DNA from: Massospora cicadina
Taxonomy: Eukaryota > Entomophthoromycota > Entomophthoromycetes > Entomophthorales > Entomophthoraceae
Assembly: GCA_022478985.1 (NCBI GenBank)
Contig: JAKSZP010009289.1
Coordinates: 144,991-208,990 of the forward strand
Reading direction: 5' to 3'
Length of the DNA: 64,000 nt
This document shows positions 2,800 to 57,568 of the stretch, piece after piece. The notes under the pieces were generated by a model. It was given only the letters and a program-made list of their open reading frames with translations. It had not been told where the DNA came from and ran no database searches. Each line of letters starts with the position of its first letter. Within the stretch, counting starts at the first letter, position 1. The position numbers and the translations under genes were made by a program.

Positions 2800-4540
2800 A
2801 TAAGAAAAGAAAATAAAAATAAAAATAATAATACACATAATTGTAGGAAAATAATAAATAAGTAAAAAAGGAAAAAATATATAATAACCAAAATATATAC
2901 TAAAAAAGTATATAATATATAATAGTAATAAAGAAATTATATATATAATAAAATTGAAATTCATTGGTAAAAATAATTAATCTAAAGAAATTTTGTTTAT
3001 CCACTTTGGGGGAAAGGTGATTTGGAACGAGATTCCTCTTCACATGCCAATTCAGCCCAATATAGTTGCTGAGTGACAAGGAAAAGGGCCATAATGGCAT
3101 AGAGCCAAATGCGCCATGTACAAGTTGAAGCCAAATCACATTGAACAATTGGGAGGGAGGAATTAAACCATTAACTGTGATCCAATTGAGCCCACAATCA
3201 GTTGGAAACAAATGCCCAGGAGAATAAATTCAACTAAAAAATCAGTCTGGTACTGATACATTTCTGGGGTCACCAGTTGGATGTAATAAATTTGGGCTTT
3301 CCACCACTCAATAAAGGGGACATATGCAATAACTGGCTTGAAGGCATCCAGTTAAGAAACAATATGCATAATTTGGCCATGTAAGGCCAATTTCAGGAGA
3401 TTTTTTTTAGTACCAGATGGTTTTTCAGGAGATATTCATCCAAGTTATCTTGATGTAAAGCCTCAAAGGCTGCCCAAACTTCCAAGCAGAAATGAACATC
3501 CTGAACATCATGTTCTTTAGACCCAAGGATGAAGCAAAATCGGGCCTACTCCTGAGTAGCATGGGACCAGGAACTGAGGAACTCCTCCACAAAGCCATCA
3601 ACTTGGACAAAATCTTGAGGTCATATGGCTGTATCCTCAGCCAGAAAAAGATGAAGGGGGGCTATAAAGCTGATATTCAGCCCTCATTTGGTCAAAAAAG
3701 TTGACCCAAATGAAAAAAATTGGATGATCCCAGTACTGCATTGTATGCTTGAGTCATTGGAAAATTGCTTAGGGCGAAAATAAACTTTACCAGAAGAACA
3801 CCATCCCGATATATAGATTTCAGTGAAAAACTTGTCTTTCAAGAGTCAAAAATGTGGCCAAAAGTGCTGTCTGGAAAGATTGTTGAAAAGCGAGATTAAA
3901 ATTTGTAGCCAAAAGATAATTGAGTGTGCTCATTGGCAGGGTTAGTCTCCTCCTCAACAATAGTCTCAGGCCAAGTAGACGTTTTTATCGTCAGGACAGG
4001 AACAACTTAACCCAACTGAGACGCCCAGAGAAATCCTATGAACATATGCATCCACATAGTCCTCTCTATTTGAATAAAACAGCGATGTTGTTTAGGGTTG
4101 AGAGAAGTGACGAAATTGCGTTAGGCAAAAGAGGCACTGTTTACAGGCATTGAATATTAAAATTGGGAAAAGTTAGGGTTTATATTCCATAAAAGTAGTG
4201 AAATATTAGATTTTGATGGTTGACTCAAAAAAACCACTTTTAGAAAACCATCAATACTAATAGGTTACTCCCATCGATGGGTACTTTGATCCTTCCCGAT
4301 TTTTCTGCTTTATCTGATAAATCAGATTTACCTCTAAACCAACTTGTTTGCATCTTAATAGACTGACTATTGTAGCTAAAAATAGCTATGATATAATATG
4401 CTATTTTGATGAGGTTAGCTGACCAGGAGATGGCCATTACTGATCTAAAGCATAAACTAAAACTAAGACTAAATAGTAACATAACTAATTGTTTCAAACA
4501 AAAAGCCCAAATGAGCAATTGAATGAAACGCACCAAAAAA
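2800..4540. other. Gene-free stretch, A+T-rich
   Basis: No supported gene. 2800-2990 is nearly pure A/T (runs of aaat and tata). 3000-4540 has short open frames on both strands without recognisable motifs, plus one micro-retroposon at 3391-3433. It could hold the lost 3' LTR of E1 or the continuation of the L2 gene that lies to its right on the minus strand, but neither can be shown. Confidence 0.5.
3391..3433 (-). mobile_element. Micro-retroposon 1 with 11-bp target duplication
   Basis: A 21-nt insert (3402-3422; minus-strand sense ACCATCTGGTACTAAAAAAA) lies between two perfect copies of tttcaggagat (3391-3401 and 3423-3433). The insert is the same 3' tail found in four other places in this window, one base different here. 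A direct repeat around an A-tailed insert is the mark of target-primed reverse transcription by a LINE enzyme. Confidence 0.85.
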
Positions 4541-18081: not shown

Positions 18082-18443
18082 GACTTCTGAATAATTAAGA
18101 TGGGTATGTCCTGATAATTTTTGATTAAGTCCTAAAAAGGGACCGCTGAACCAAAATAGATGTTATTTCTTTAGAATAAGACTCTGAACCATAGAAACTG
18201 GTAGGTAAGAGTATACCTAGGAACCATTTTGGGGGAATTAATAAAAAAAGATGGACCGCTGAACCAAGTGAAGGTCATGGCCCATATAAAAAAGAGAAAT
18301 TTATAAAAGATTGATAAAAATATAGCAAAAAAGAAAAACTTAAAAAAAGCACATATAAAAAAGATATATTTTTATATTTTTATATTGGTTATCCTCGACT
18401 CAGGTTAATTCTGCCTATGTCGCCTCTTGAGGAGAAAGGAGGA
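18082..18443 (+). repeat. B1 3' noncoding region with four GACCKCTGAACCA units and purine tract
   Basis: Between integrase and the purine tract lie four degenerate copies of a 13-mer, GACCKCTGAACCA, starting near 18082, 18141, 18180 and 18254. B2 has four at 63456, 63512, 63553 and 63627 with almost the same spacing (59/39/74 against 56/41/74). The block ends with the purine run aggagaaaggagga (18430-18443), followed by tgtatagcag, the presumed LTR start. Confidence 0.75.
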
Positions 18444-33116: not shown

Positions 33117-33168
33117 TTTATAGTAGACTCTTTTTTTTTAGTACTAGATGGTTTTATAGTAGACTCTT
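33117..33168 (-). mobile_element. Micro-retroposon 2 with 16-bp target duplication
   Basis: Perfect direct repeats tttatagtagactctt (33117-33132 and 33153-33168) enclose exactly 20 nt, tttttttagtactagatggt. The same 20-nt insert is found at 38572-38591. Sense is the minus strand, with the A-run at its 3' end. Whole insertion plus duplication, no other sequence. Confidence 0.93.
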
Positions 33169-35310: not shown

Positions 35311-37470
35311 CATTCATGACACGGCCAATTCAAGAGATTATGGCTAATCTCTCCGATTCTTCATGATGCTAAATTTAATCTTTTCTATATTGCACCAAAT
35401 CTATGCACTGCCCTGTACCAAAATAACAATCAGCTTTTAATGATAGTAGTAGCCTCAACCAAATGCTACCCACTCTGTAGCGCAGTTGTAAGATCTGCCA
35501 CCTTACTGTTTATTGCGGGCCCCTTCTCACTAACCTTCTGACTTCTCTGTCAATGCTAAGTTTGGTTTATTAAATTCAAATCAAAGCAACCATAACAGTC
35601 TTTGATGTCACTACAGCAGAAAGATTCAACACAAAATCAAATATAAAGCACTCAAGTTTTGCTACGTTTGCCTCCCAATTAAAGTCCACATAATGTAGAA
35701 CCCAACAGAACTAAATTTTTTCCTACTATATTCATTGTTATCCTTATATTAACAACTTATCATTCAACAAAATTGAAAGCTATTCTATATATGTCCCCAA
35801 TCCTCTGCTTTTCACCACGACTCACAAGTTCTTTGGAAATGCAGCCGCTAAGGGTGTGCCCAACCCCCTGCCCCCTCTGACATAGTAAACAGCGTTTTGC
35901 TAATACTAGCCTAGTTAGAAGCTTTGTTGTATACTCTATTTACCTCGCTCCCCAGACCCTCAAGTGTGCCTTCCTTATTCACATACTCTTAAATTAAATG
36001 TTAAAAAGTATACTTCATTAACAATAGTAAAAAATGGTTTTTGTATCTTTTTTGATATAACGTATACTTACATATCTTTATAAACTAATAATGACCTTTT
36101 TATAGTAAAAGTTACAATACTTTTATAGCTACCTGTACTCTCTGAGTACATTTTATCCTATTAATTTTAAGTATATATGAGCCAGATAATTTAACTCCAT
36201 ATAGATAGTTTGTTCAAAGTAGTCTCAATGATAGCATTTTGCAATCCAAATGACATAGTTGCTTCACCATGATTTGTTTTGATAGATTAGTAGGTTTGAA
36301 ATCATTAGAAGCAATTAGAAGTTGATATAATAGTGTAGATAGTCAAATTATCTGTTAGCTCAAAAACGTATATCTATAATATAATTTTATAATTACCCTT
36401 ATTACTATATTTATATATGCATTAGAAGGCAAAAGTGGAAGTAAAATTATTATTTCATTAAAAATTGTATGACTTTCAGGATTGGTATTTGCCAAGATAA
36501 CTGGGTTTTAAGTTAGTGTGCCTTAGCACCCTTAATAGCAACTATAAACTACAAGTTGACACTATACCCAAGGGAGTAATTATAAAACAGATTGAGGGAG
36601 TATAATTGAGTATTATGCAACATTTGGGCTATAGTTGATATATTTGTTTAATCATTGTAAGCTCCCTTGACAGCTTTAGAAATTTAGTTTTCATTTATAA
36701 CACTTCTATATATAGTTTGATTGTGATGCCCCTCCATAGTCCTCTATTTTTAATAGTGGAAGATTGAGATTGGTATATATTCTTGAGCTTGTTAGTTTTG
36801 GAAAAAAGGTTTATATTACAGGAAATGTGAAAAATAACATAATGCCCTAGTTTAGCATTATTTAGGTTTTATAGTGACATGGGAAAATTTATACTATGTT
36901 ACAGCTCATAATGGTATTGTTATTCTTAAAAGCTATTCTTAAAAGCCATTCTTATGGAATTATGCACTCTTTGGTCTAACAACATTAGAACTTACTAATA
37001 CAATTGTCCCTTAATTTAAATCACTTATAACTATTTTAAAAGAAATTTAAGAGGTTTCTTCTCCAAGACCAACGTTAACAGTTTTTGCAAGCACAAAGCC
37101 CTAGGCTTGATCTGTACTGTAGAGGTTTATTCCATTTTCTATACTATCTTTAAAGCTTACTTTCACTCATTGTAGACTTTTCAGATTTATAAATATAAAA
37201 CTATGCTTATTTGGGAGTTATGGTGTTTTGGGATTAGACTTGGTATTGAGGTTTAAGACTTAAAAAAAGGTCAGCAGCCACCTATTGTCCATCCATGGCA
37301 TGTCTCAGGTCATTCAACTTGGCCAGAGGAAAGGTTTATGGGTTGTTATCTCTCTTAATCTTATACAGGCCCAAGGTCTGGTCCAAAAGATAAAATTTAA
37401 ATTTAATTGGGTAAGGCTGACCATAAGATGCACACTTCAAATATGTAAACTAACAAGCACTAATATGAGC
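35311..37470. other. No gene recognised, very A+T-rich
   Basis: Long stretch with stops in all frames. It contains a small tandem repeat (attcttaaaagct, twice, at 36922-36950) and a tRNA-like A box (TAGCGCAGTTGTAAGA, about 35478) without a clear B box. Nothing else supportable. Confidence 0.5.
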
Positions 37471-38350
37471 TAGAGGCGCCCCAGAGAAGCTAACGCTGTC
37501 TCCTGTTTCCATCGGGAACGCCAAATAAAGGAAGAGGAGTATCATGAGTAAAAGGCTTGCGCCATTATTAAGCACATATGAAGGAAAGGGTCTGAAGTGA
37601 TGAACCAAACTGAAAACCAGGATAAGTCAACCGTCATTGACAGGATGGTAGATAACCAAACAACCATGCTTGAAAGTTGTCAATAAGGTGTGGCTGGAAT
37701 TGGCGTACAGCTTTCTGAAGGGTGGGAGTAGAGCCTGAAATGGCATCTAAAACAACCGTGTGGATAATCCATATTTTAATTGCTACCACTAAGGATTGGA
37801 GGAAAGGTTGTATAGGGTAATTCAAGGACAAGGCGAAGATGACATTAGATAGGTTGAAGAAATGTGTTTGCTCCTGGCAAAAAAGACATTAACCTCACGC
37901 CAAATCGCTTTTGACGGAGGGCACTCTTCCAGGCGGTGGACCAAAGTCCCATATTGGTCACAACACTTGAGGAGTTTGATGCGTTGGATCGCTCAACAGT
38001 AAGAGATACCCGTTTCAAGCAGCTCCACACATGGGAGCAAACATGCGGCTTTATAAGAGGGTGATGGGCAGACTTCCAGATGGCATTCTGGGCTTCTAGG
38101 GAGTAGGGAATGTCCAACATGTCCAGATAATCCACTCTGGCCATGATATGGGACCTCCCAAGGTATCATACTGTTAAGAACGGCTTGGATTTGTACTTTC
38201 TGTGTGAGGAGGGGATTAGGGAGACCCCTCTGGGAGATGTGCCCACTAAAGCAAATTCTCTAATATGCGCTCCACATGGAGAGGAGAATTCGTTTGAAGA
38301 GGGCGACGTCACATGTGGTCCATCAGCAGAGGGATGTGAGGCAAGATATC
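37471..38350 (-). pseudogene. LINE copy 1 C-terminal region
   Basis: Downstream of RT. Frame 38144-37845 reads ARVDYLDMLDIPYSLEAQNAIWKSAHHPLIKPHVCSH, and 37831-37634 gives LNYPIQPFLQSLVVAIKIWIIH. In copy 2 the same zone holds RRDVMRLLCQEREQAFSLSK, the zinc-binding zf-RVT-like module common after LINE RTs. Broken into at least three frames. Confidence 0.7.
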
Positions 38351-38554
38351 TTAACAGAGAATGGGGAAGGGTAGGAATTCTGAGGCCCAGGGTGTGGGAA
38401 AATTGGTGCAGGCCACGCGTGACCAGTGTTGGGCTTGGATTGTGGGGCTGGTGACTGCAACGATCAAGGTGCCAAGTATTTTGGTGGCATGGGCCTCAAA
38501 GTTATGTAAGCCCATACCACCACTATGGCAGGGCAAATAAGACATCCAGGAACA

Positions 38555-38608
38555 CTGAAGGTGGGAAGCTTTTTTTTTAGTACTAGATGGTCTGAAGGTG
38601 GGAAGCTT
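38555..38608 (-). mobile_element. Micro-retroposon 3 with 17-bp target duplication
   Basis: Perfect direct repeats ctgaaggtgggaagctt (38555-38571 and 38592-38608) around the same 20-nt insert as at 33133-33152. LINE copy 2 at about 44095-44115 (cacagggggagggcggcctaacc) has one copy only and no insert, so it is the empty site. Confidence 0.95.
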
Positions 38609-39733
38609 AACCAAAGCCGCCCTTGCAGGAGGGCATATAACGAGATGAAGAAAGATGGGATAAGGCAATAGTCTGAGTCTCAAACCAAACTTTTGATAGG
38701 AGCATAAAGTTGGCCAGCACTGTATTGCATAGTAGGGAAGTTTGGTGGGCCTGAGGGAGGCGATGCGTTTTTTGACATTGTCCAGAATATGGTTCTCAAT
38801 CACCAACGAGGCGTACTTCCCGCCCCCAGCTACACACCTAAATGGCGTACCAGACCAGCAGTGGGTCTTGGCATGTAGGGAGAACAAGTGGGGTGGTATG
38901 GGGTGGGCGAGGAAAGCGAACCTGTGAGCTAGCTGCTGAAGCAGGTAGGAAATTGGGTGCTGGTGAACACCGGGCTTGGAACTGACAAAGGAGAATGATT
39001 TTGGTTTTGGAGGCGTTAAGTGTAACTTTACTTACCATGGAGAAAACCTGGATAGTAGCCTCACGCATGCAAGTATCTTGGATGTTAGACACCCCAACCA
39101 CACAACCATCAGCAAAAGCCAAAATCTTAACCAATGATTGGCCTTGCACAAGGAAACCAGTAAGGTGGGCATTCATGTTGCATAGAAGTTGATCAAGGCT
39201 GAAGCTATACAAGAGTGGGTTCAAAGGGTCCCCTTGGAGGAGGCTTCTTTGAGGACGAAATATGTTAATGAAGAAGCCAGGGCCACACACAGCCATTGTG
39301 GCAGATTCCTTAAGCAACACCACCCAATTAAGGAACCAACGGGGGAGGTGGAACTTGTGGAGGCAGGCTTTAAGGTAATCCCAGTTGACTCTATCATAAG
39401 CCATCTGCTGGTCTTAAAAACAAGTGCCCTAGTAGCCGTGGATTGCCAAACGTTGGCTACATTGTGTATGAGGTCCAATATAGACCGCTTAGAAATAAAA
39501 CCAAATTTCTCAAAGGAAATGATATCAGAGGCAACTTCCACTAGACGGTTGGCCATAATTTTAGTAAATAATTTAGTATCTGTATTAATAAGTGAAATGG
39601 GGCGCCAGTTGGCCAAGTCCAGCTTAGCCCTTTTTTATAAAGCGTTATTTTGAAAGCCTCCTGGCCCCCAGGAAGGAGGCGCATTTCTTGCAGACAATGT
39701 TTCATTATGGCAAGCAACAAAGAGGAGAAATAA

Positions 39734-39898
39734 TTAAAATATCTCTTATATAAAGGGTGGTTAGCCTGGTAGATAAAACTGCTTCCACTCTAGTGCAGGT
39801 TTTGAGTTTGAAACTTCTACTGGCTAGGAAAATTCTTAGTGTGGTATATTTGTCCCAAGGTCGATCCACCTCAAATATTTTTTAAAATATCTGTTATA
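39734..39898 (+). mobile_element. SINE-2, tRNA-derived, inserted in LINE copy 1
   Basis: 131-bp retroposon (39751-39881) between 17-bp duplications ttaaaatatctsttata (39734-39750 and 39882-39898, one mismatch). The head shows an A box (TTAGCCTGGTAGATAAAAC, about 39760) and a B box (GAGTTTGAAACTTC, about 39808). The 3' end is CCACCTCAAATATTTTTT, the same closing motif as SINE-1. LINE copy 2 near 45230 (caattaaaataatttttg) lacks it. Orientation is opposite to the host LINE. Confidence 0.93.
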
Positions 39899-40299
39899 GG
39901 CTCATAAGGAATCCCATCTTGACCTGGGCATTTCCTGTTTGGTGCGCTGCAAACGGCATACTGAGTTATTCCTAAGAAATTAAATTCATCAACTCTGGGT
40001 TTTGGAAATGGTGCAGATATGTGCACTTACAAGAAATTTGTCAACTTCAGCTGTTCAACTGGATCAGAGCGATACAATTCAGAGTAGTAATTTTGAACTT
40101 CATTTGCCACTTCAGCTGGAGTATCTGCGATGGAGTGGTCCAGCCGCCTCACCTGTGTGCAGGCCAAGCTCTGTCATGGTGCAAGGAATTTTTGGAAAAA
40201 ATATATGGAGCATGTGTCACCTGCCATTATATTTTTTGCCTTATATTGCACATATTTACGATGTTTGTGTTGTCTTACCAGTGCGTTGAGATGAGCAGA

Positions 40300-41320
40300 C
40301 TATTCTTCCCACTTACAACCCCAAGCTGGGCTGTAGCCTACAGCTGGGATGTTATACTCCAGGTGGTCCTCTCCTACAAGTGTTTGCATAATGAATGCTG
40401 ATGAACCCTGAGAGCGATGTGAGGAGAGATGGCATGTCTGGAGGTTGGTGTTCGCATTGAAGGTTGACCAGGTAGTAAGTGAGTCTGCACAGAACAGTGT
40501 GGTGAACTCTGGTGCCAAAGTTTCAGCATCCACCCATGAGGTAAACCAGGCGACGTGATCTCGGCTGGACAAAGTTTGCACCATTTTGGCGCCTGTGCTG
40601 TTGGGTGTGACAAAAAGAAGGAAATCAACACCAACCTGTGGTCAGAGAAATTGAATTTTTGTCAATGTAAAATGTGAAATCTGGGGGCAAAAATTTAACG
40701 GTTCAAGAATAAGTTTAATGTGGGACATAGACCTCAGCTGACCGTTGTGCACGTGGGGTTGACATGTTGGGAAACAGAAGTGCATGTTTAGATATGGTAT
40801 CAAACAGCCCAAAAGTGGCTTTTAGAATGTGAAGTTCTACATGCCCCTGTAGGGGGCAGGTGATAAGGCCAGCGTTTGGTGGCTGAGTTAACCCAGCAGT
40901 TCGTGTCACCCATCGCAATTGGGTTATGGGGAAGTGGGAGGGAAGTAATGACTGAGAAGAAAACCCAGAGAGCCCGCACACAGATTGTGTCATATATAAT
41001 AACAATAGTGTGCATTTTGTCATCCCATGAAGAGAACACTACAAGCACATGGCCATCAAGGTAAAAATCTTTAGAAATGAATTTAAAGTTATGGGATGCA
41101 TGTATAAGCACCCCACAGTGCGGCAACCAGAAAGAAATGGAAGGGAGGAGCATTATTGCCCATGTTTCCTTGGCACCGTGTGAATAATGGGTTTCCTGAA
41201 TGGCAGGATACCCACAGGTAAATAATGTCTAAAAAACTCAGTTTCCTAGCCTGGGATGGCGAGGTTTTGAGTCCAGCTATGTTCACCATCCTTATTGTGA
41301 AGCTCCACCCCATTGCACCT
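40300..41320 (-). pseudogene. LINE copy 1 endonuclease
   Basis: Apurinic-type endonuclease that nicks the target DNA. From the right it reads MVNIAGLKTSPSQARKLSFL (41290 on), PIAMGDTNCWVN near 40915 (the GDxN catalytic block), then FNFSDHRLVLISFFL near 40650 (the SDHxxI C-terminal block with the catalytic His). Frames change at least three times. Copy 2 counterpart: 45830-46750. Confidence 0.85.
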
Positions 41321-41649
41321 TAGGTTCTATGGGAAGGCCCCTTGGCCTTCTTGGCCTTCCATTGGTGCTTTCTCAGCAGCAGAGTAGCCCACGTTTGGTG
41401 CACTTTTTTATATGTGGGCTTAAGGTGATCTGTCACTTTGGATGTAGTTGTGGTTTTGGTCTTCTTTTTTGCTGTTTTGGTTCAAATTACAAATTGCTGT
41501 GTTCCTGCGGTGCATCAATGGAGGTCAACAGAAAATTTGGAGGTAAATGGGTGATAAATTCAGTTTTATTTGGGAGGTAATCTTGCTCAGGTAAATCTGA
41601 CTCACCCATTGAGTCCTTAGGTGGGTTGGCTTAATCTGATTGGTGAATG

Positions 41650-42560
41650 GATTCATGAGCCGCTTCAGCCATAAATTGACTTGATGTCATCTGGGGTCAG
41701 AGCAGGCAGGATCATGGATGCAGCAATGGCTGCTGCTCTTCGCGCCTGCTTGGGCTTCTTACACTTCTGCGGGGACACTTGTTTGACCTGAATGTAACAC
41801 CCATGTTCGCTCCATGAGAAGGTGGCATAGGTGTCTATAGCCAGTTCATAATGGGTTTCTGCACTGTCAATTACATTATGTAGGATTTCGTTTTGTGTAA
41901 TGCCCTCCTTTTGCAGGGAAAGCGTGGGACTTGTGGCCAAAAGCGTGACAAAGGTGCACATAGGGGGCGCGGTATCCACTGTGACGTGGATTGGGTGCAA
42001 TTCCAGCCTGTCAATGAACACAATTGCTGTGTGGGTGATTTGGGTTAAATCTTTCACAATGACTGAGGATGAGATGATCAAAGCAATCACTTTGCCCGTG
42101 CACAGGCCCAGAATGAACATAAAGCGTTGCATTTCAAAGGAGTGAATTTTCTATAGCTTTTAAGCCCTTCCTTAAGCTGGAGCTCCAGCACTGTGCGCTT
42201 CATTGTTATGAGGATAAAGTCAAACGCTACAAAAATTTCAGTTTAATTTGGTCCACCAAGTGCACTTTGTCTCAACCACCCATTGACCATCTTGGAGGTC
42301 TACCACTACATACACCTGTGAAGCTTTGTTAGTTTCTTTTTTATTTTCAAACCCTAATCCAACCAAACGCAGGTCATGGAGTGTGGTGCAATATATACTG
42401 CTTTCGAAAATGGTTGTGCACATCTCCACAGAACTTTTCCCAAAGCGCTGTATGATTATTATCCAGGAAGACTTGAACCCGTGCTCCACTGATGACAGGG
42501 GCTGGGAATGCGGAGTCTTGATAAACTGGTTACACTTTGCTTGAAAGCTAGATATACAGG
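41650..42560 (-). pseudogene. LINE copy 1 ORF1 with decayed CCHC knuckle
   Basis: Gag-like RNA-binding protein. Frame 42132-41665 (155 codons) reads HVTVDTAPPMCTFVTLLATSP; copy 2 shows that this is a shifted CTFCHAFGHKVHTC knuckle. After it come ITQNEILHNVIDSAETHYELAI and a basic stretch QKCKKPKQARRAAAIAAS. The N-terminal part (42489-42238) has QVYVVVDLQDGQWVVETKC. ORF ends just before the endonuclease. Confidence 0.8.
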
Positions 42561-42790
42561 GAAAAACTAACCGCTGTTTTAAATTTTATCTAGGCTGCCA
42601 GTGTCGCCAGGGCTTTACAAACTTTAGACAGTGAAGAGCCCAATCCTGTGCCCTTTACTTTGCTAGCCCAACTGCTACCAGACATTGGGTGCACGCTAAT
42701 CTCCTCAAAGAGATTAATAAGCTTACCTAGACTTGAATCAAATTTTTTGCAATTAGTGATTTCAACGAGAGAGAAAAGCTTTTGATCCAC

Positions 42791-43010
42791 TAGGTAGATG
42801 AAACCAAGAACCTTAATAGAACTAAACTTTTATATAAGATATTCTTTACTACTATAATTAATCTTATCATAGAAAGTATATTTTTTAAAAAAAAGTAAAT
42901 CTTGATTTTCCAATACTTTTCTCTAAATCACCTTTAAAGCTTTATTTGGGGAAGGCAGATCATGGGATGGGAACTTCCTATATACATCAACTACAAAACT
43001 TTAAGAAAAC
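42791..43010. other. Spacer between the two LINE copies
   Basis: About 220 bp of A+T-rich sequence separating the 5' end of copy 1 from the 3' end of copy 2. I see no direct repeat that could be a target duplication for either copy. Confidence 0.6.
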
Positions 43011-44050
43011 AAGAGGCACTCCAGAGGAACTGAAGCTACCTCCTGTTGCCAGCAGGACTGCCAGTGGAAGAAAGAGGGGAAGTTACAGGGGAGATTTGGG
43101 CCAAAACTAAACACAAATGAAGGAAAGGGTCTGACGAGAGGAACTAGATGGGGAACCAGGATGATTTTAACTGGCATTGCGGGATGGCAGGTGGCTACAC
43201 AAACAATCTTGAAAATGCTCTGTGAGGTGGGAGTGGAAGCAATGCACAGCTTCACGGATGGTTGGGTAGTGCCAGACAGTGCATCAAGGACAATAGTGTA
43301 GATCATGCATAGCGCTATTGCAACAATTAATGTGTGGAGTGATGGGTGGATAGGAGAGTTCATGTAAAAGGCGAAGATATTTTTAGACAGGCTGAAAGCC
43401 TGCTCACGCTCCTGGCATAAGAGGCGCATAACATCCCGCCTGATCGCCTGTGATGGCGGAAATTCTTCCATTTGATGGAATAATGACCTGTATTGACCGC
43501 ATAAAAATCATAAAGTTTGAGAGGCATTGGAATGCTCAGTCATGCGGTACACCTTTCTCAGGTACCTCCACACATGAGCGCGAATCTGGGGTTCTAAAAT
43601 AGGATGGTGAGTGTACCGCCAGATGTCCTTTTGGGTCTTCAAAAAGTATGGGATGTCCAGCTTGTCAAGGTAGTCCACACGGGTAATTTGGAGGGACGTT
43701 GGGTACCAGGTTGTTCAAAACGACTTGTCCATGGAAATCTTGTTTGAAATGGGGAGTAGGGCGACCCCTCTGGGCGGTGTGTCCTCAGTTGTTGATTCTC
43801 CACCCAGCACTTCACATTGATAGGAGAATTCGTTTAAAGTGGTGCAACGTCACATGTGGGCTCGAGGCAGAGGGATGAGAGGTCAGATAGTTAAGTAGCG
43901 AATGGAGGTGGTTAGGATTATGTAGGCCCAGGGCGTGTGAAAAATTGGAGTGGCCCCGCGTGACCAGTGTTAGTATGGGAGTGTGGGGTTGGTGACTTCA
44001 GCGATCCAGTTTACAAGTATTTTGGCGGCATGGGCCTTAAAATTGAGCAG
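43011..44050 (-). pseudogene. LINE copy 2 C-terminal zinc module
   Basis: Frame 43471-43001 (156 codons) reads MEEFPPSQAIRRDVMRLLCQ then EREQAFSLSKNIFAFY and LHTLIVAIALCMIYTIVLDAL; just upstream FLCGQYRSLFHQ supplies the Cys of a CxxC/H type zf-RVT module. This is the end of the RT polyprotein. Confidence 0.75.
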
Positions 44051-44099
44051 GCCCATGCCACCACTATGATATGTGCCAAACATGTCATCCAGGCGCACA

Positions 44100-45350
44100 G
44101 GGGGAGGGCGGCCTAACCAAAGCCACCCTTGTAGGAGGGCGTACAAAGAGTTTATGGAATAGTGGGAAAGGGAGAAGAGTAAGCTAAAAACCAGACTTTA
44201 AACAGGAGCATAAATTTGGCAAGCACAACCTGACCTGGGAGGGTAACCTGGTGGACTCTGAGGGAAGCGATGCGTTTTGTGACATTGTCCAGAATATGGC
44301 TCTCCATTGCCAATGGGTTACCCTCCCGCCTCCAACCACACCCCCAAATGGCGCACCAGACCATCAGTGGTTTTTTGGCACAAAAGGGAGAACAAGCGGG
44401 GTGTAATGGGGTTTCTGGGAAAGTGAACCTGAAAGCTATCTGCTGAAGCAGGCTTATTATGGGGCGCTGGTTACCTGTGGGCTTTATACCAGCTGAGGAT
44501 AATGATTTTAATTTTGGAGGCATTGAGAGCAGCTTTAATGACCCTGGAGTAATCCTGGATAGTAGCCTCAAGCACACAAGCCTTTTGGTTGTTAAACACC
44601 CCAACCACAAAATTGTCTGCAAATGCCATCATACTAACAGGTGCTTGGACTTTCACATGGACACCAGCAAGGCGGGCATTTACATTGCATAACAGTGTTA
44701 GAGGCTAAAGTTATAAGAGTGGACTTAAAAAATCCCCTTAGTGGAGACCCCTTTGAGGGTGAACCACTTCAGTGAGAAAACCAGGGCCTTGCACAGCCAT
44801 AGTGGCAGACTCCATTAGAAGCATCACTCAATTAATGAACTGGTAAGGGAGGTGGAACTTGTGGAGTCAGGCTTTGAGGTAATCCCAGTTGATCCTATTT
44901 TTCTTTTGTTGATCTTAATACACAAGCGCCCCAGTAGCCATGGATGGCAGATATTAGCCTCGGTGTGAATTTTGTCCCATATTGACCACTTGGGGATGAA
45001 ACCAAATTGCTCAGAGGAGATTACTTCATAAGCAACTTCCCCTAGGCGGTTGGCCATGATCTTGGTGAATAACTAAGTATCAGTATTAGTAAGTGATTTG
45101 GGGCGCCAATATGCCAAGTCATTATTATAACCTTTTTATACAGCGTTATCAAGTATGCCTCCTGGCCCCCAGGAAGGAGGCGCATTTCTAAGAGACATTT
45201 GTTCATTGAGGCAAGCAGCAGAGATGAGAAACAATTAAAATAATTTTTGTAGAACTCATATGAAATTACATCTGGACCTGGGCACTTCCTATGCGGTGCA
45301 TCACAAACGGCATACCAAAGTTTGTCCCAAGTAATTAAACGCATCAGCTC
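44100..45350 (-). pseudogene. LINE copy 2 reverse transcriptase
   Basis: Motifs: CPGPDVISYEFYKNYF (45290, the GPDxxxxEFYK block), MRLLPGGQEAYLITLYKK, MANRLGEVAYEVISSEQFGFIP (45057 on), and AFADNFVVGVFN (44625), in which the FADD box is FADN. Motif A is lost: the sequence near 44900 has an interrupted form of AYDRVNW. Frame 44622-44152 covers the palm end and thumb (SHILDNVTKRIASL). Confidence 0.9.
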
Positions 45351-45776
45351 CAGGTAATAGTAAATGGTGCATATATATGTATCATTGAGAAACTCATTAA
45401 TTTAGGCCAGTTTGACTTGTTTGGACTTTTTAAAACTCAGAGTAAAAGTTTTACTCTTTGACTTCCACAATAGCTGGAGTTTCTTCAACGGAGGTGTCTG
45501 GCTGCCTTACCTGTGTTCAGGACAAGCTCTGTTGCAGTGCAAAGAATCTACAAAAAAGTAGGTGAAGCACATGTCACCCGCCATTATAATTTTTCCTTAT
45601 ACTGAACACAAACGCAATATTTGTGTTGTTTTACCAGTACGTTTAGATGAGCAGACATGTCTGCCCACTTACTCTAAGCCAGTCTGTATCCTGCGGCAGG
45701 GACATTTGACCCCAGGTGGTCCACTTGCACTATCATGCACTAAATGACCGTCAAGACAGCCCAAGTGTGATGAGAT

Positions 45777-45861
45777 GAGATGTGGCGTGCCTGACATTGA
45801 TGAATCCCCCACTCGGGTTGGGACCATCTAGTAGTAAAAAAAAGAGATGTGGCGTACCTGA
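45777..45861 (+). mobile_element. Micro-retroposon 4 (49 nt) with 18-bp target duplication
   Basis: Direct repeats gagatgtggcgtrcctga (45777-45794 and 45844-45861, one mismatch) enclose 49 nt. This longest copy reads from a B-box-like ttgatgaatccccc, through actcgggttggg, to accatctagtagtaaaaaaaa. LINE copy 1 at 40425-40445 (gagagatggcatgtctgg) is the empty site. It shows that the 20-nt inserts are 3' ends of a tRNA-like SINE. Confidence 0.93.
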
Positions 45862-46760
45862 AGGATGGTGTTCACTTTGAAGGTTGAACAGGTATCGAGT
45901 GGATCAGCACAAAATGGTATGGTGAACTCAAGTGCCAAAGTTTTGTTGTCCACCCATGAGGAAACCCTAGGTGACGTGATCTTGGCTGGACAAAATTTGC
46001 ACCATATTGGCACCTGTGTCACTGGGCTTGATAAATTGAAAGAAATAGAAATCAACCTGTGGTCAGAGAAATCATTTTTTTTCATTTTAAAATGTGCAAT
46101 CTGGGGGCAAAAGTCCAACGGGGCAAGAATGAGGTCAATGTGGGACATAGACCTCAGCTGAAAGTTGTGCAAATGGGGATGGGACATGTTGGGTAGCAGC
46201 AGTGCTTGTTTGGGGAAGGTATCATATAGCCCCAAGGTGGCTTTAAGAACGCAGAGTTCAACATGCCCCTGCAGGGGAATAGGCAATGAAGGCCAGCGTT
46301 TGGTGGCTGGGTTAACTCAGCAGTTCATGTCGCCCAGCACAAATGGATCAGGTGGAAGTGGGAGAAATGTTAAAGATGAGAGGAACTCCTGGCGAGCCTG
46401 CGCACGGATTGGGGCATAAATTTCAACAATAGAATGCACTTTGTCATCCCACGAAAAGGACACTACAAGGACATGGCCATTGAGTTACAAATATTTGGAA
46501 TTAATTTAAAACTATTAGACACACATATAAACACTCCACAGTTTGGTGACCAAAAGGAAGGGAGGGGAGGAGCATGCTTGCCTTTGTTTTCTTGGCACTG
46601 TGTGGACAGTGGGATTCCTAATTGACCAGGATAACCACAGGTAAATTATTCTTTAAAAAACTCAGTTTTCTAGCCCAGGATAGCGATGCCTTGAGTCCAG
46701 CTTGTTCAACGTCCCTATAGTGAAGGAGACCCCCATCACATCTTAGGTGCAATGAGATGG
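45830..46760 (-). pseudogene. LINE copy 2 endonuclease
   Basis: On the minus strand near 46340 the sequence encodes LGDMNC then a stop then VNPATKRW (GDxN catalytic block intact), then LILAPLDFCPQIAHFKMKKN and DFSDHRLISISFNL near 46080 (SDHxxI block). Frame 46286-45828 is open for 152 codons. Best-preserved endonuclease half in the window. Confidence 0.88.
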
Positions 46761-47049
46761 GCCCCCTTGCCCTTCAGCCGACTAATTTTACAGCACACTT
46801 CTCTTTGGCATCACGTGAGTTTTGTGCTACTGATTAATTGTCCTTAGGGAGTATTTTGCTGTGTGTTTATTGTCAGATTTGGAATTTTTGATTTATTTAA
46901 AATTTTTGAAATTGTATGCTCCTGAAGCGCACCATCGGTTGTTAATAAAAACTCAGTGGAGAATGGGATGGGGGAATCAGTTTTGATCAGTTCTTGGTAA
47001 TTTTGCTTGGGTAATCCGACTCATTCATCTGGTACACAGGTAGGTGGGC

Positions 47050-47990
47050 CATTCTGATTGGTGAGCAGATTCTCAAGCTGCTTCAGCTGCAAATGACTTG
47101 ATGTCATCTTGGGTCTGGGCAGGCGGTATCACATATATGGCCCTAGCTGCTTCCTTGGCCACAGCCCTATGGGCCTGTTTGCCCTTTTTGTGCTCTTGCA
47201 AGGACACAGATTTTACCTGAATGTAGCATTCCTGTGCACCCCATGGGAAGTCAGCATTGATGTTAATGGCAGATTCATAATGGGATTCTGCGCTACCCAT
47301 TGCGTTGGGGAGGATTTCATTTTAAATGATGCCTTCTCTGGAATGGCATGTGTGAACCTTATGGCCAAAAGCATGACAAAAGGTGCAGATAGGGGGCGCG
47401 CTATCTACCATAACCTGAAACAGGTGGGATCCTTGACTGTCAATATTTACAACTGCAGTGTGGGGGAATTTGGGTCAAAATTTCCACAATGACCGCGGTT
47501 GAGGTAATCACTGCAATTGCTTTTCCCATGCTAAGCTCCAGCATAAGCGTAAGGCACTGCATTTCAAAGTATTGTAGTTCCCCAAGATCTAAGCTCAACA
47601 AAGAGGTGGTGCTCCAGGACTTTGCAATTCACCGTTGTGGGTAGGAAGTCAAAAGCAACAAAAGTCTGATTAGATTTGGTCCAACGTGTGCACTTTGTTT
47701 CAACCACCCGTTGATCATCCAGGAGATCGACCACCACATGCACCTGTGCATCGTTGTCTACTGCTTGCTTAGTATAAACCCAAGATCCAACCATCTGCAG
47801 GTCATAAAGTGTGGTGCAACATATACTGTAGCTGGGAAGTGTTTGTGCACATCTCTGCAGAACTTTTTAATAAAGTGCTGTTAAGTTAACATCCATGAAA
47901 ACTTGAACCCCATGCTCCACTGATGACAGAGGCTGGGTATGTGAAGTTTTGATGAACTGGTTGCATTTTGCTTGCCAAGCTAAAATCTCC
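47050..47990 (-). pseudogene. LINE copy 2 ORF1 with intact CCHC knuckle
   Basis: At about 47395-47350 the minus strand encodes APPICTFCHAFGHKVHTCHS, a complete C-x2-C-x4-H-x4-C knuckle. After one shift, frame 47300-47073 continues GSAESHYESAININADFPWG and QEHKKGKQAHRAVAKEAARA (basic, Ala-rich tail) before the endonuclease. Upstream 47794-47564 holds QVHVVVDLLDDQRVVETKC, matching copy 1. Confidence 0.85.
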
Positions 47991-48214
47991 AGCAAAATAC
48001 TCACCACCATTTTCTTTTTTTATCTAGGCTACCAGCTTGCCAGGGCATTTATGAACTTTGTACTGTGCAAATACTGACCCTGTGCCCTTTACTGCGCTAG
48101 CTCAACCTTTACCCAATGTTGGGTGCACATTCATCTCTTTGTATTGATTATCAAATTTTATCAGACTTAAATTAAGTTTGGTTGCAATTAGTGATCACAA
48201 TGAGAAGAAAAAGT

Positions 48215-48645
48215 CACTTTTATCTATATCTTTTTTATCACTAGTGGAACCCAACCCAAAAGAGGATTGCCACACATCTTTATTTGCAAATGAGCCAAAT
48301 AAAGGGATTATTAGAAATAAAAAAATTCCTAATATAGCCCCCAAGTTATCAGCCTAGAAAGCCATATCAGAAGGTGAGGAAGTTTTGAGAATATTTTTTG
48401 ACTGATGTCCGCTTTAGCTGGCAGGCCATGGTGGACAACATAGGGGTTGGAGCATCAGCGACATATGGCATAAGGAGATATAATTGTGGGTTTACTTCAT
48501 TAATGAGGCTGGCAGTATCCATCGCCTCAACATATTGAGCAATTTGATGCTCAGCGAAAGTGATGAGAGCAGGCACACAAGTGAGAGACTTGATGCACTG
48601 GCGGGTTTGGGGATAATTGGGGGCAAACACACTTTTATCTATATC
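48215..48645 (-). mobile_element. Polyadenylated retrocopy of an unknown mRNA, 16-bp target duplication
   Basis: Perfect direct repeats cacttttatctatatc (48215-48230 and 48630-48645) flank about 400 bp. On the minus strand the insert starts abruptly inside a reading frame, carries 86 codons to a stop near 48367, then about 135 nt of untranslated sequence with an AATAAA signal near 48285 and a terminal A6 (48231-48236). Coding 3' end, polyadenylation signal, A-tail and duplication together are the signature of a 5'-truncated processed retrocopy made by a LINE enzyme. Confidence 0.85.
48367..48629 (-). pseudogene. Open C-terminal coding fragment inside the retrocopy
   Basis: Frame of 86-87 codons without an initiator Met: FAPNYPQTRQCIKSLTCVPA, then LITFAEHQIAQYVEAMDTAS and LINEVNPQLYLLMPYVADAP, ending KKYSQNFLTF and a stop. 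It is fully open, unlike most frames here, so either the insertion is recent or the source gene is. I do not recognise the family. The source could be a host gene elsewhere in the genome. Confidence 0.6.
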
Positions 48646-51109: not shown

Positions 51110-51797
51110 AGTTATGTAGAAGGGATTGGCACGTGATGTCATATAAAGATGAGATAAAAAACTATGGATGGAATTGGCAACCATTAATAAGAACGCCCCA
51201 AACTCAGCGGATCATCAAGAATTTGCATCCTAGGAAAAAAAAGTTGCTAAGATGGAGGAAGGGGTCAATAATGTCGCAAGTTTCAGAAATGAGCTACTTG
51301 GAAAAGTAACATTAGTGAAGAAGAATAAGTGACTTATCATCTAGTACTAAAAAAATGAGTGACTTAATTTGAGAAGTCTTATTTCTGAAAATGGAGTTTG
51401 AAGTGGATCACGTTCATTTAAGAGCATTCAATTTTGATATAAAGTGGCTGATAAATAGGTCAAGGAGTTGAAAACTCACAAATGTGAATGTGAGGCATAT
51501 GCAGCGATCAATGCCAAAGAAAGAACTCCTCATATGCTAATTGTAAAGATGACAACCCTAAGAAACATGCCGCCCATTTTTACTGCTTTTTGGAGAGGAT
51601 GCCCAAAATCACTCCTCAAGTGAGCTGAGTAGCTTAACCAAATGAGGTGGCTAGAGAAACCTCAGAGGAATTCAAAATGCCCCAAAATTGCCAACTTTCC
51701 ATTAGGATAACGCCCAGTTTTTTTCCAATTGTTTGTAATGTCAATGTATGGATATGGCGATCATCAAAAAGCTTTGATGGTGATGAATAGCCTAGAT
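51110..51797 (+). pseudogene. Gypsy B2 gag, first part
   Basis: Leader and gag N-terminal region. From about 51495 it aligns with B1 7230 on (blocks aaagaaagaactcc, ttttggaga, aatcactcctcaagt, ggtggctagagaaac). Interrupted at 51797 by chromovirus A; the next bases of the gene are at 59662. Decayed. Confidence 0.65.
51328..51366 (+). mobile_element. Micro-retroposon 5 with 9-bp target duplication
   Basis: agtgactta (51328-51336 and 51358-51366) flanks 21 nt, tcatctagtactaaaaaaatg: the 20-nt tail core with two extra bases after the A-run. It sits in the gag leader of B2. Confidence 0.85.
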
Positions 51798-55361: not shown

Positions 55362-56374
55362 TGTCAGAAAATCGACTTTGGGCTCTGCTAGTTGGCAGGC
55401 TAACCAGTACGAAGACTGTTTAATCCTTGCCATTTTATCTTAGGCATTGGGGCTAGCAGTACCAGCTAACCCCTTGGCATGTCACACGCACCATTTCAGG
55501 GATCCCCTTTAACCTAAACTCCAACCAACAAAATAAATAATAAACTTATAACAAAAGGTAGAATAGGCAAAGGGAGATAATTTATTGAAAGGGAAGCGCC
55601 AGGTATTTATACTATTTACAAAAGTGCTACTGCGCCCATCGCCGACCTATCAGCTCTTATGCTGGTTCTTCCAGCCAACCACTTCTCTTCTTCTTCTACT
55701 TCTTCTACTTCTTCTACTTCTACTTAATCTCTTCCCTGGCGTCGACCCTCTCGCTCTGTCCATCCCAATGTCTGAATTAGTTTTGGATCATCCTTGGCCT
55801 TAAGTCACAAGTGAGCCATACAAATATATAATTTAATTAAATGTCAAATTTGAATTTGACCTTCAAATTAATAATAATGTGCTGGAAACAACTTTGGTTG
55901 CTTACTTGACTCAAAATATTTCGTCATCTCACTGACATCAACTTCTTAATAAATGAGGCACTGGAAACAACCTCAGCCACCTCAAACTCATAATTGTTGG
56001 ATCTACCAACATTAGATAATTAGGCAGTGAACGTCTGAAGCGAATACATTAGCTTTCCATCAGAAATCATACAACAGACTACAAATGGCCATTGGCATCA
56101 ACCACTGATTCCGCTGACTGATTGGATCAATCTCAGCTATTAGTTGCCATAGATCCTTCTACTAATTTGGGTCACCGATTGGCCCCACTTGAACCTAAGA
56201 TACCAACCTCAGCGGAATACTAATTTCAGCTCAACCCAAATTGAGGAGCAACTAAACAGCAATTACATTTAAAGCACACGAGGTTCAGTGAATAAACCAT
56301 TCCACTGGGATTGGCTATATTATTCCAAATAATGTTAAATCATTGGAGGATTTCATCTGGTTAAAATCACGACA
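55362..56374 (-). repeat. Miniature element 3' LTR (left)
   Basis: 1013 bp. On the minus strand TATAAATA (55614-55621) is a plausible promoter box. A run of cttctt/ctactt triplets (about 55681-55726) is longer here than in the partner LTR. Its short frames (55585-55803) mirror those in the partner and are not regarded as genes. Confidence 0.92.
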
Positions 56375-56390
56375 TTTCCCCCCGCTTAAC
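56375..56390 (-). promoter_or_regulatory. Miniature element polypurine tract
   Basis: The plus strand reads tttccccccgctta right after the left LTR; on the minus strand this is TAAGCGGGGGGAAA, ending exactly at the LTR, a strong polypurine tract. Confidence 0.9.
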
Positions 56391-56545
56391 CATATGGTAA
56401 TCCTCCTACTTCCAAACTCAGCATGTGAGGCAGGCGTCCAGGGTTGCCCCTCCCCACCACCAACAACTGCTGGAACCAAACCACAGTGGCGTATCACCAC
56501 CACCTCTTAACCAACCGTTAGCTACTTAAGCACCAACCAGCAGAG

Positions 56546-56566
56546 TCCCCCTGTAGTGAGCACCAA
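56546..56566 (-). promoter_or_regulatory. Miniature element primer-binding site
   Basis: The plus strand reads ccccctgtagtgagcaccaa up to the right LTR. On the minus strand it is TTGGTGCTCACTACAGGGGG, one base inside the LTR edge. Its complement ends in ACCA, as expected for pairing with a tRNA 3' end. Shared with D and B2, not with chromovirus A. Confidence 0.9.
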
Positions 56567-57568
56567 TGTCGGAAAATTGACTTTGGGCTCTGCTAGTTGG
56601 CAGGCTAACCAGTATGAAGACTGTTCAGCCCTTGCCGTTTTATCTTAGGCATTGGGGCTAGCAGTACCAGCTAACCCCTTGGCATGTCACCTGCACCATT
56701 TCAGGGATCCCCTTTAACCTAAACTCCAACCAACAAAGTAAATAATAAACTTATAACAAAAGGTAGAATAGGTAAAGGGAGATATTTATTGAAAGGGAAG
56801 CGCCAGGTATTTATACTATTTACAAAAGTGCTACTGCGCCCATCGCCGACCTATCAGCTCTTATGCTGGTTCTTCCAGCCAACCACTTCTCTTCTTCTTC
56901 TACTTCTTCTACTTCTACATAATCTCTTCCCTGGCGTTGACCCTCTCGCTCTGTCCATCCCAATGTCTGAATTAGTTTTGGCTCATCCTTGGCCTTAAGT
57001 CACAAGTGAGCCATACAAATAAATAATTTAATTAAATGTCAAATTTGAATTTGACCTTCAAATTAATAGTAATGTGCCGGAAACAACTTCAGTCGCTCAC
57101 TTGACTCAGAATATTGGCATCTCGCTAATGTTAACTTCTTAATAAATGAGGCACCAGAAACAACCTCAGCTGCCTCAAACTCATAATTGTTGGATCCGCA
57201 AACATCAGATAATCAGGCAGCAAACATCTGAAGCAAATACATCAGCTTTCTGCCAGAAATCCCACAATGGACCACGAATGGCTGTTGGCGTTGACCACTG
57301 ATTCCACTAACTGATTGGATCACCTCAGCTATTAGTTGCTGGTGATCTTTTCTACTAATTTGGGGCCACCGATTGGCCCCACTTGAACCTAAAATACCAA
57401 CCTCAGCAGTATACTAATTTCAGCTCAGCCCAAATTGGGGAGCAACTAACGATCAATCACATTTAAAGCACACGAAATTCAGTCAGTAAATCATTCTGCC
57501 AGGATTAGCTATATCATTCCAAATAACGCTAAATCATTGGAGGATTCCATCTGGTTAAAATCACGACA
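56567..57568 (-). repeat. Miniature element 5' LTR (right)
   Basis: 1002 bp partner of the left LTR, with TATAAATA at 56808-56815 on the minus strand. Differences between the two LTRs are scattered transitions and a shorter triplet run. Confidence 0.92.

Follow-up and report, generated by a model that had tools for sequence, protein, structure and literature searches.

Very short A-tailed inserts in Massospora cicadina, read from sequence as 3' ends of one L1-type LINE family

Five very short inserts sharing the tail motif TACTAAAA, here called stubs, lie in 64,000 nucleotides of Massospora cicadina DNA (the whole stretch analysed, hereafter the window). They raise the question of whether such small units are elements of their own or remnants of something longer. 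The first-pass annotation had considered an undescribed element class, with the tail itself as the mobile unit, and, alternatively, a reverse transcriptase of very low processivity. With up to three mismatches allowed, ACCATCTAGTACTAAAAAA found five close matches in the window, as against a mean of 0.03 in 100 shuffled controls. All five inserts were present as annotated, with zero or one mismatch, and were bounded by direct repeats of 11 to 18 bp (repeat scores 10 to 17; Table 1). Only the right end of the insert at 51337 had to be moved, from 51357 to 51353-51355; the insert itself is real and its repeat matches at 12 of 13 positions. The 33 weaker tail-like matches in the window (four to five mismatches) displayed repeat scores of 8 at most.

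Table 1. Stubs, target duplications and LINE sequences of the window
Feature	Position	Strand	Remarks
3' copy of 11-bp target duplication ATCTCCTGAAA of 3402 stub	3391..3401	-	
21-nt stub AACCATCTGGTACTAAAAAAA	3402..3422	-	direct repeat 11/11 bp
5' copy of 11-bp target duplication of 3402 stub	3423..3433	-	
3' copy of 16-bp target duplication AAGAGTCTACTATAAA of 33133 stub	33117..33132	-	
20-nt stub ACCATCTAGTACTAAAAAAA, class I	33133..33152	-	direct repeat 16/16 bp
5' copy of 16-bp target duplication AAGAGTCTACTATAAA of 33133 stub	33153..33168	-	
LINE copy 1, different LINE family, RVT_1	37396..42777	-	host of 38572 insert
3' copy of 17-bp target duplication AAGCTTCCCACCTTCAG of 38572 stub	38555..38571	-	
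20-nt stub, class I, within LINE copy 1	38572..38591	-	repeat 17/17 bp; empty site in LINE copy 2
5' copy of 17-bp target duplication of 38572 stub	38592..38608	-	
LINE copy 2	42933..48211	-	about 70% identical to copy 1; host of 45795 insert
5' copy of 18-bp target duplication of 45795 insert	45777..45794	+	17/18, one mismatch to other copy
49-nt insert, start CATTGATG, class II stub within LINE copy 2	45795..45843	+	empty site in LINE copy 1
3' copy of 18-bp target duplication of 45795 insert	45844..45861	+	
399-nt insert	48231..48629	-	perfect 16-bp target duplication
5' copy of target duplication AATAAGTGACTTA of 51337 stub	51324..51336	+	
Stub TCATCTAGTACT plus A's	51337..51353	+	up to two further A's may be part of stub; repeat 12/13
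3' copy AATGAGTGACTTA of 51337 duplication, one mismatch	51354..51366	+	first A's may be tail

A scan of the window that ignored the tail and took only direct repeats beside an A-run (score at least 11) returned eight places: four of the five inserts (51337 was missed), 48231-48629 and three unrelated ones. Six order-3 Markov controls gave zero to four places at score 11 and none at 13, and the 3402 insert, with a repeat score of 11, is not distinctive by its repeat alone. The three unrelated places, at 18140, 18283 and 63454, are direct repeats near A-rich stretches whose inserts are unlike the stub family. Elsewhere in the window, a direct duplication of about 1 kb (55362-57568; 89.9% identical) lies between Ty3-like RNase H and integrase pieces, and each of its copies contains a CTT-rich microsatellite.

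LINE copies 1 and 2 stand head to tail (37396-48211), about 155 bases apart. As first proposed, they provide empty sites for two of the inserts: those at 38572 and 45795, each together with one repeat copy, are absent from the other LINE copy, and the junctions are gap-free. Deleting insert and one repeat raised the alignment score from 228 to 263 (38572) and from 189.5 to 248 (45795). Since, among 300 length-matched deletions at random, the top one scored the same or slightly higher (263 and 251.5, respectively), the score alone is not unique, and the argument is that insert plus one repeat matches the gap. This empty-site evidence comes from two paralogous sites, both in the window.

The assembly containing the window (1.47 Gb, 16,968 contigs) held 30,632 exact occurrences of the 17-mer ACCATCTAGTACTAAAA, the backwards-read control yielding none, and 34,559 occurrences of the 16-mer ATCTAGTACTAAAAAA (control, two). 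An exact 22-mer found no match in viral and prokaryote contig collections. The main sample consisted of the first 100 listed 17-mer places in contig order (the first eight contigs), and is thus non-random and restricted to exact matches; all 100 were unique sites, 40 taken with 5 kb of upstream sequence and 60 with 260 bases. Flanking direct repeats scored at least 9 in 87 sites and at least 11 in 84, while 20 runs with swapped right flanks left zero to four sites at score 9 and zero or one at score 11. This was the flank check proposed with the first-pass annotation. Neither outcome that it had named as fatal to its reading, tails without flanking repeats or tails lying all inside longer repeats, was encountered: 87 of 100 carried repeats and 10 of 100 lay in longer repeats.

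Target duplications averaged 16.5 bp and measured 12 to 20 bp in 80 of 84 sites. Past the first three bases they were perfect in 66 of 84 (21 of 1,138 bases differed), so that many insertions look young. They mostly began with A's, which is partly forced by the alignment to the A-run. At the 5' junctions, filler bases were missing in 62 of 87 sites and present in 25. The A-run, target A's included, was seven long in 48 and eight long in 23 of the 100 sampled tails (L001-L108). The starting point of priming seems fixed; mammalian L1 tails, unlike the short A-run of these stubs, are long. A C-run within the LINE tail was four to eight long in stubs and long copies (L002, L004, L061, L137 and others), varying as if by slippage during copying.

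Ten of the sampled tails belonged to long LINE copies. The long copies have one element in common; two of them, L021 and L022, were 98% identical over more than 4.8 kb. Its reverse transcriptase matched RVT_1 (3.6e-33, L021), and an APE-type endonuclease lay upstream (Exo_endo_phos 3.2e-9, from a scan of L022 alone); zf-RVT was also found (2.4e-6). Among solved structures, the reverse transcriptase best resembled 8c8j_A, labelled 'RNA-directed DNA polymerase' (1.6e-37), also a LINE-1 entry, then LINE-1 ORF2 chains (from 4.3e-37) and, more distantly, R2 proteins. The first ORF had no Pfam match; from its zinc-knuckle-like cysteines we take it to be gag-like. The element ends in ...AATTCAATAAACATCGATGAATCCCCCCTTGGGTTGGGACCATCTAGTACTAAAAAAA, an A-rich 3' end (A-run mode seven) with target duplications, as in L1-type LINEs. 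The 84 sites with repeat scores of at least 11 are nearly all stubs, and the long copy L006 displays a 17-bp repeat with a mismatch. The zf-RVT and PDB matches suggest that the parent belongs to the L1 clade. A published comparison of fungi gives L1 LINEs as 6.3% and unique to Massospora cicadina among those compared (PMC10515909).

Because this parent of more than 4.8 kb has the identical 3' end, the stubs are no separate class, and the suggestion of an undescribed one was dropped. Judged by sequence, they are the 3' ends of one L1-type LINE family. They displayed the features of 5'-truncated copies: a LINE-identical 3' end (itself part of the search pattern), a variable 5' end, the same subfamily variants and, at the two paralogous window sites, an empty counterpart lacking both the insert and one target duplication. 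The 399-nt insert at 48231 carries a similar tail (AATAAA, AATCC, GGGTTGGG, CTAGT, TAAAAAA) and probably derives from the 3' part of an older sister LINE; the only genomic occurrence of its tail 17-mer is the one in the window.

The number of bases before the A-run was distinctly distributed. Among the 100 sites, 63 had 12-24 nt (class I), two had 25-35 nt and 21 had 36-43 nt (class II), so that stubs of 12-43 nt made up 86 of the sampled tails; besides the ten long copies, four were unclear (L034, L038, L042, L060). Extrapolating from the first eight contigs, 86% of 30,632 gives roughly 26,000 or more exact-tail stubs genome-wide, and LINE-driven insertions that halt after about 20 nt and carry target duplications, as the first-pass annotation had supposed, are thus very many. 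In nested counts, GTTGGG lay upstream of the exact tail in 13,227 of the 30,632 places, GATGAATC accompanied it in 7,096, and TAATTCAAT, about 52 nt in, in 2,390. These counts miss variants, the TAATTCAAT pattern listing seven of the ten sampled long copies; on this basis roughly one tail in ten is long.

By construction, the 17-mer search is blind to stubs shorter than about 12 nt, and the searches covered inserts with an A-run and the 3' end. The 17 listed ATCTAGTACTAAAAAA places without the exact 17-mer comprised 16 inserts of 8-13 nt and one of 38 nt, and all but one, which scored 8, had repeat scores of at least 11 (here without a swapped control); one of them, L176, is the L037 stub already seen in a generic repeat scan. 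That scan covered 276,680 bases, and 31 of the 39 places that it yielded had the family tail. The other eight included family stubs of 10 and 4 nt with perfect 18- and 16-bp repeats, respectively, and one of 12 nt; the remaining five held inserts of 81-130 nt, unlike another LINE tail. Stubs of A's only may exist. At L042 (156-200), the insert consists of TACT and seven A's between perfect 16-bp repeats.

Class I ends were diffuse, spread over about 8-24 nt and mostly within the 3' arm of a predicted hairpin, whereas the class II end was sharp, at AATAA^ACATCG (about 38-43 nt), one base inside AATAAA. The class II stop was analysed in the 86 of 161 unique sites that have GATGAATC; of 100 listed GATGAATC places, 60 were newly added, 26 had come in with the 100-site sample and 14 were omitted. 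Upstream of GATG, the match to the template ended at 5 nt (ACATC) in 37 of these 86 sites, at 6 nt in 11 and at 7 nt in four; in 26 it extended over 40 nt or more. Eight further sites ended at 2, 3, 8, 10, 10, 11, 12 and 21 nt, the last being L022, with an internal deletion. Exactly one templated A stood at the start of 14 of the 20 alignable class II copies (of 21), six of the 14 sharing that base with the target repeat; L100 had no alignable start and L019 began inside it. In 19 of the 21, the start fell at or within three bases of CATCG, with insert lengths of 38-43 nt and C-runs of 4-8. As the start remained constant while length and C-run varied, the stop is fixed by template position and not by cDNA length.

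Each of the 30 long copies examined continued for at least 260 nt, and none ended at 44-260 nt. For 25 of them the upstream sequence covered only 260-286 bases, their true 5' ends lying beyond; in L118 the match ended near 290. The empty interval points to an early abort or a long run, and not simply to weak processivity, so that the very low processivity first suspected does not describe this enzyme. The subfamily variant TTGGG was found in 49 of 61 class II and 21 of 27 long copies (p = 0.78), and C-run lengths were similar. Class II and long copies thus seem to share one pool of RNA as their source, and with the same subfamily mix no separate master element is needed.

The reading that we consider probable is that target-primed reverse transcription of the LINE RNA aborts in the 3' tail, with an early turn to the second strand. 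The enzyme would nick the target and prime on a short A-run; the reverse transcriptase would copy a little of the LINE 3' tail and then usually stall, and the stalled complex would switch to second-strand synthesis, thereby fixing the stub. A first stop zone would correspond to the 3' arm of the predicted hairpin GGGTTGGGACCATC, and a second stop would lie one base inside the AATAAA signal. Complexes that pass about 43 nt would continue for at least 260 nt, and for kilobases in some copies. Such early aborts followed by long synthesis would be analogous to abortive initiation and promoter escape of RNA polymerases. For human LINE-1, premature second-strand synthesis has been proposed as a route to 5' truncation (PMC7617806).

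Predicted hairpins were considered as the only cause of the stops, but this view was not adopted. The predicted fold of the last 90 nt was modest (z -2.0; seven of 200 shuffles equally stable). No stop was found at the stronger upstream hairpin (positions 53-79) except L060 at 70, a class II copy with A-rich filler, and a stronger hairpin free of stops argues against plain RNA structure as sole cause. The second stop was also sharper than expected of structural pausing, and one 4-nt stub ended before the predicted hairpin.

A possible, if tentative, alternative is that cleavage of the LINE RNA at AAUAA^ACAUCG, or synthesis of an RNA starting there, yields a 43-nt tail RNA with a short A-tail, which ORF2p would take as template in trans. 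Its full-length copies would then be class II, its truncated ones class I, and long copies would derive from intact LINE RNA. On the tail RNA, the scattered 5' ends would fall in GGGUUGGGACC and the sharp one at ACAUCG. The near-exact class II 5' end, independent of C-run length (14/20; 37/86 at ACATC, 11/86 one further), favours such an RNA, and the 0 of 30 long copies ending at 44-260 nt is what two separate templates predict; the subfamily mix shared with long copies fits LINE RNA fragments. A tail that is itself the mobile unit, the other first-pass idea, is possible on similar grounds, the sharp 5' end at ACATCG suiting a short tail RNA as template. Class I, however, has no sharp 5' end and is three times commoner (63 against 21 in the sample), and no nuclease, ribozyme or promoter that could make such an RNA was identified, without a systematic search. 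The sharp class II end is better explained by a tail RNA than by aborted reverse transcription, whereas diffuse class I is not explained by it. The stronger form, in which the LINE's 3' end is set free as a separate RNA that starts with ACAUCGAUG, measures about 43 nt without its A's and is mobilised in trans by ORF2p about as often as the LINE or oftener, most copies being truncated to about 8-24 nt, we regard as rather unlikely. If true, it would make the tail RNA a retroposon of 43 nt, to our knowledge the smallest.

It is somewhat doubtful that a protein bound to the RNA, for example a polyadenylation factor on AAUAAA or ORF2p on a 3' stem-loop, acts as a roadblock behind the second stop. 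The stop does fall one base inside AATAAA, and the protein of stringent LINEs is reported to recognise a stem-loop at the 3' end (PMC4176376, PMC5135761); this is a positional coincidence only, however, and the sister tail occurs once in the genome. A roadblock would be an addition to aborted target-primed reverse transcription and not a full alternative to it. An origin by DNA processes (short DNA captured where the chromosome broke, internal deletions in long LINE copies, or a miniature DNA transposon) is very improbable. In its favour are the filler at 25 of 87 5' junctions and the scope of the searches, which took in inserts with A-run and 3' end. Against it, the target duplications, 12-20 bp long in most cases, adjoin the 5' end and the A-run without a gap, and 66 of 84 are perfect past the first three bases; no terminal inverted repeats were seen on reading the inserts; and at the two empty sites the complete insert is missing along with one repeat. 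Target-primed reverse transcription is, moreover, known to leave an A-run, duplications of about 16 bp and 5' ends that vary.

What causes the 5' truncation of LINE insertions is a long-standing question. In this one genome, some 26,000 or more completed abortive events appear to be preserved, many of them between perfect target duplications. The stub ends form a natural footprint of the first 50 nt of target-primed reverse transcription, with one stop at near-nucleotide resolution, and their pattern separates early abort from later processivity. Stubs of about 10 to 43 nt are probably overlooked by ordinary repeat-finding. The findings suggest that LINE activity can be grossly undercounted where annotation skips inserts below about 50 nt, and that a LINE can scatter short A-tailed inserts in very high number, with a net gain of about 36 bp per 20-nt stub.

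Several known kinds of elements resemble these stubs in part. A short non-coding unit that ends in a LINE 3' tail and A's recalls SINEs with a borrowed LINE tail, but the stubs have no more than 43 nt ahead of the A-run and showed neither a tRNA-like head nor any other known one, and the window, the only stretch scanned, gave no tRNA or Rfam match. The pol III-derived head with internal promoter that defines SINEs was not found, 43 nt being judged too short for A and B boxes. The SINE reading, which the 49-nt insert had raised, was rejected, since long copies have coding LINE sequence upstream. Miniature DNA transposons differ as well, the duplications here varying in length (12-20 bp in 80 of 84) and inverted ends being absent on reading the inserts. 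Stringent-type LINEs such as UnaL2 and ZfL2 have a recognised 3' stem-loop; the predicted stem-loops in the last 90 nt are a likeness, and membership is not claimed. An ultra-short human event is a 6-bp Alu insertion in SERPINC1, marked as the shortest in a table of PMC4859970 and associated with a 1.4 kb deletion; the 40 in the next column of that row is taken as its A-tail. As far as that table goes, such an L1-driven insertion is a single event, whereas here stubs are the main product of one family and have a very short A-run. In a narrow literature search, which does not establish absence from print, no family consisting mostly of stubs in two discrete zones was found. We know of none whose copies are mostly of this kind.

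The closest likeness is to 5'-truncated human L1 and other APE-type LINEs, which share the endonuclease and reverse transcriptase, the A-tail at the 3' end, duplications of the target measuring about 16 bp, variable 5' ends and occasional filler bases. The difference is that, in the sample, stubs no longer than 43 nt account for 86 of 100 tails and fall into two zones, of which one is nearly nucleotide-sharp, and the zones are followed by an interval, up to at least 260 nt, that is empty of ends. Truncated LINE copies are already known, and this stub-dominated family is an extreme form of LINE 5' truncation.
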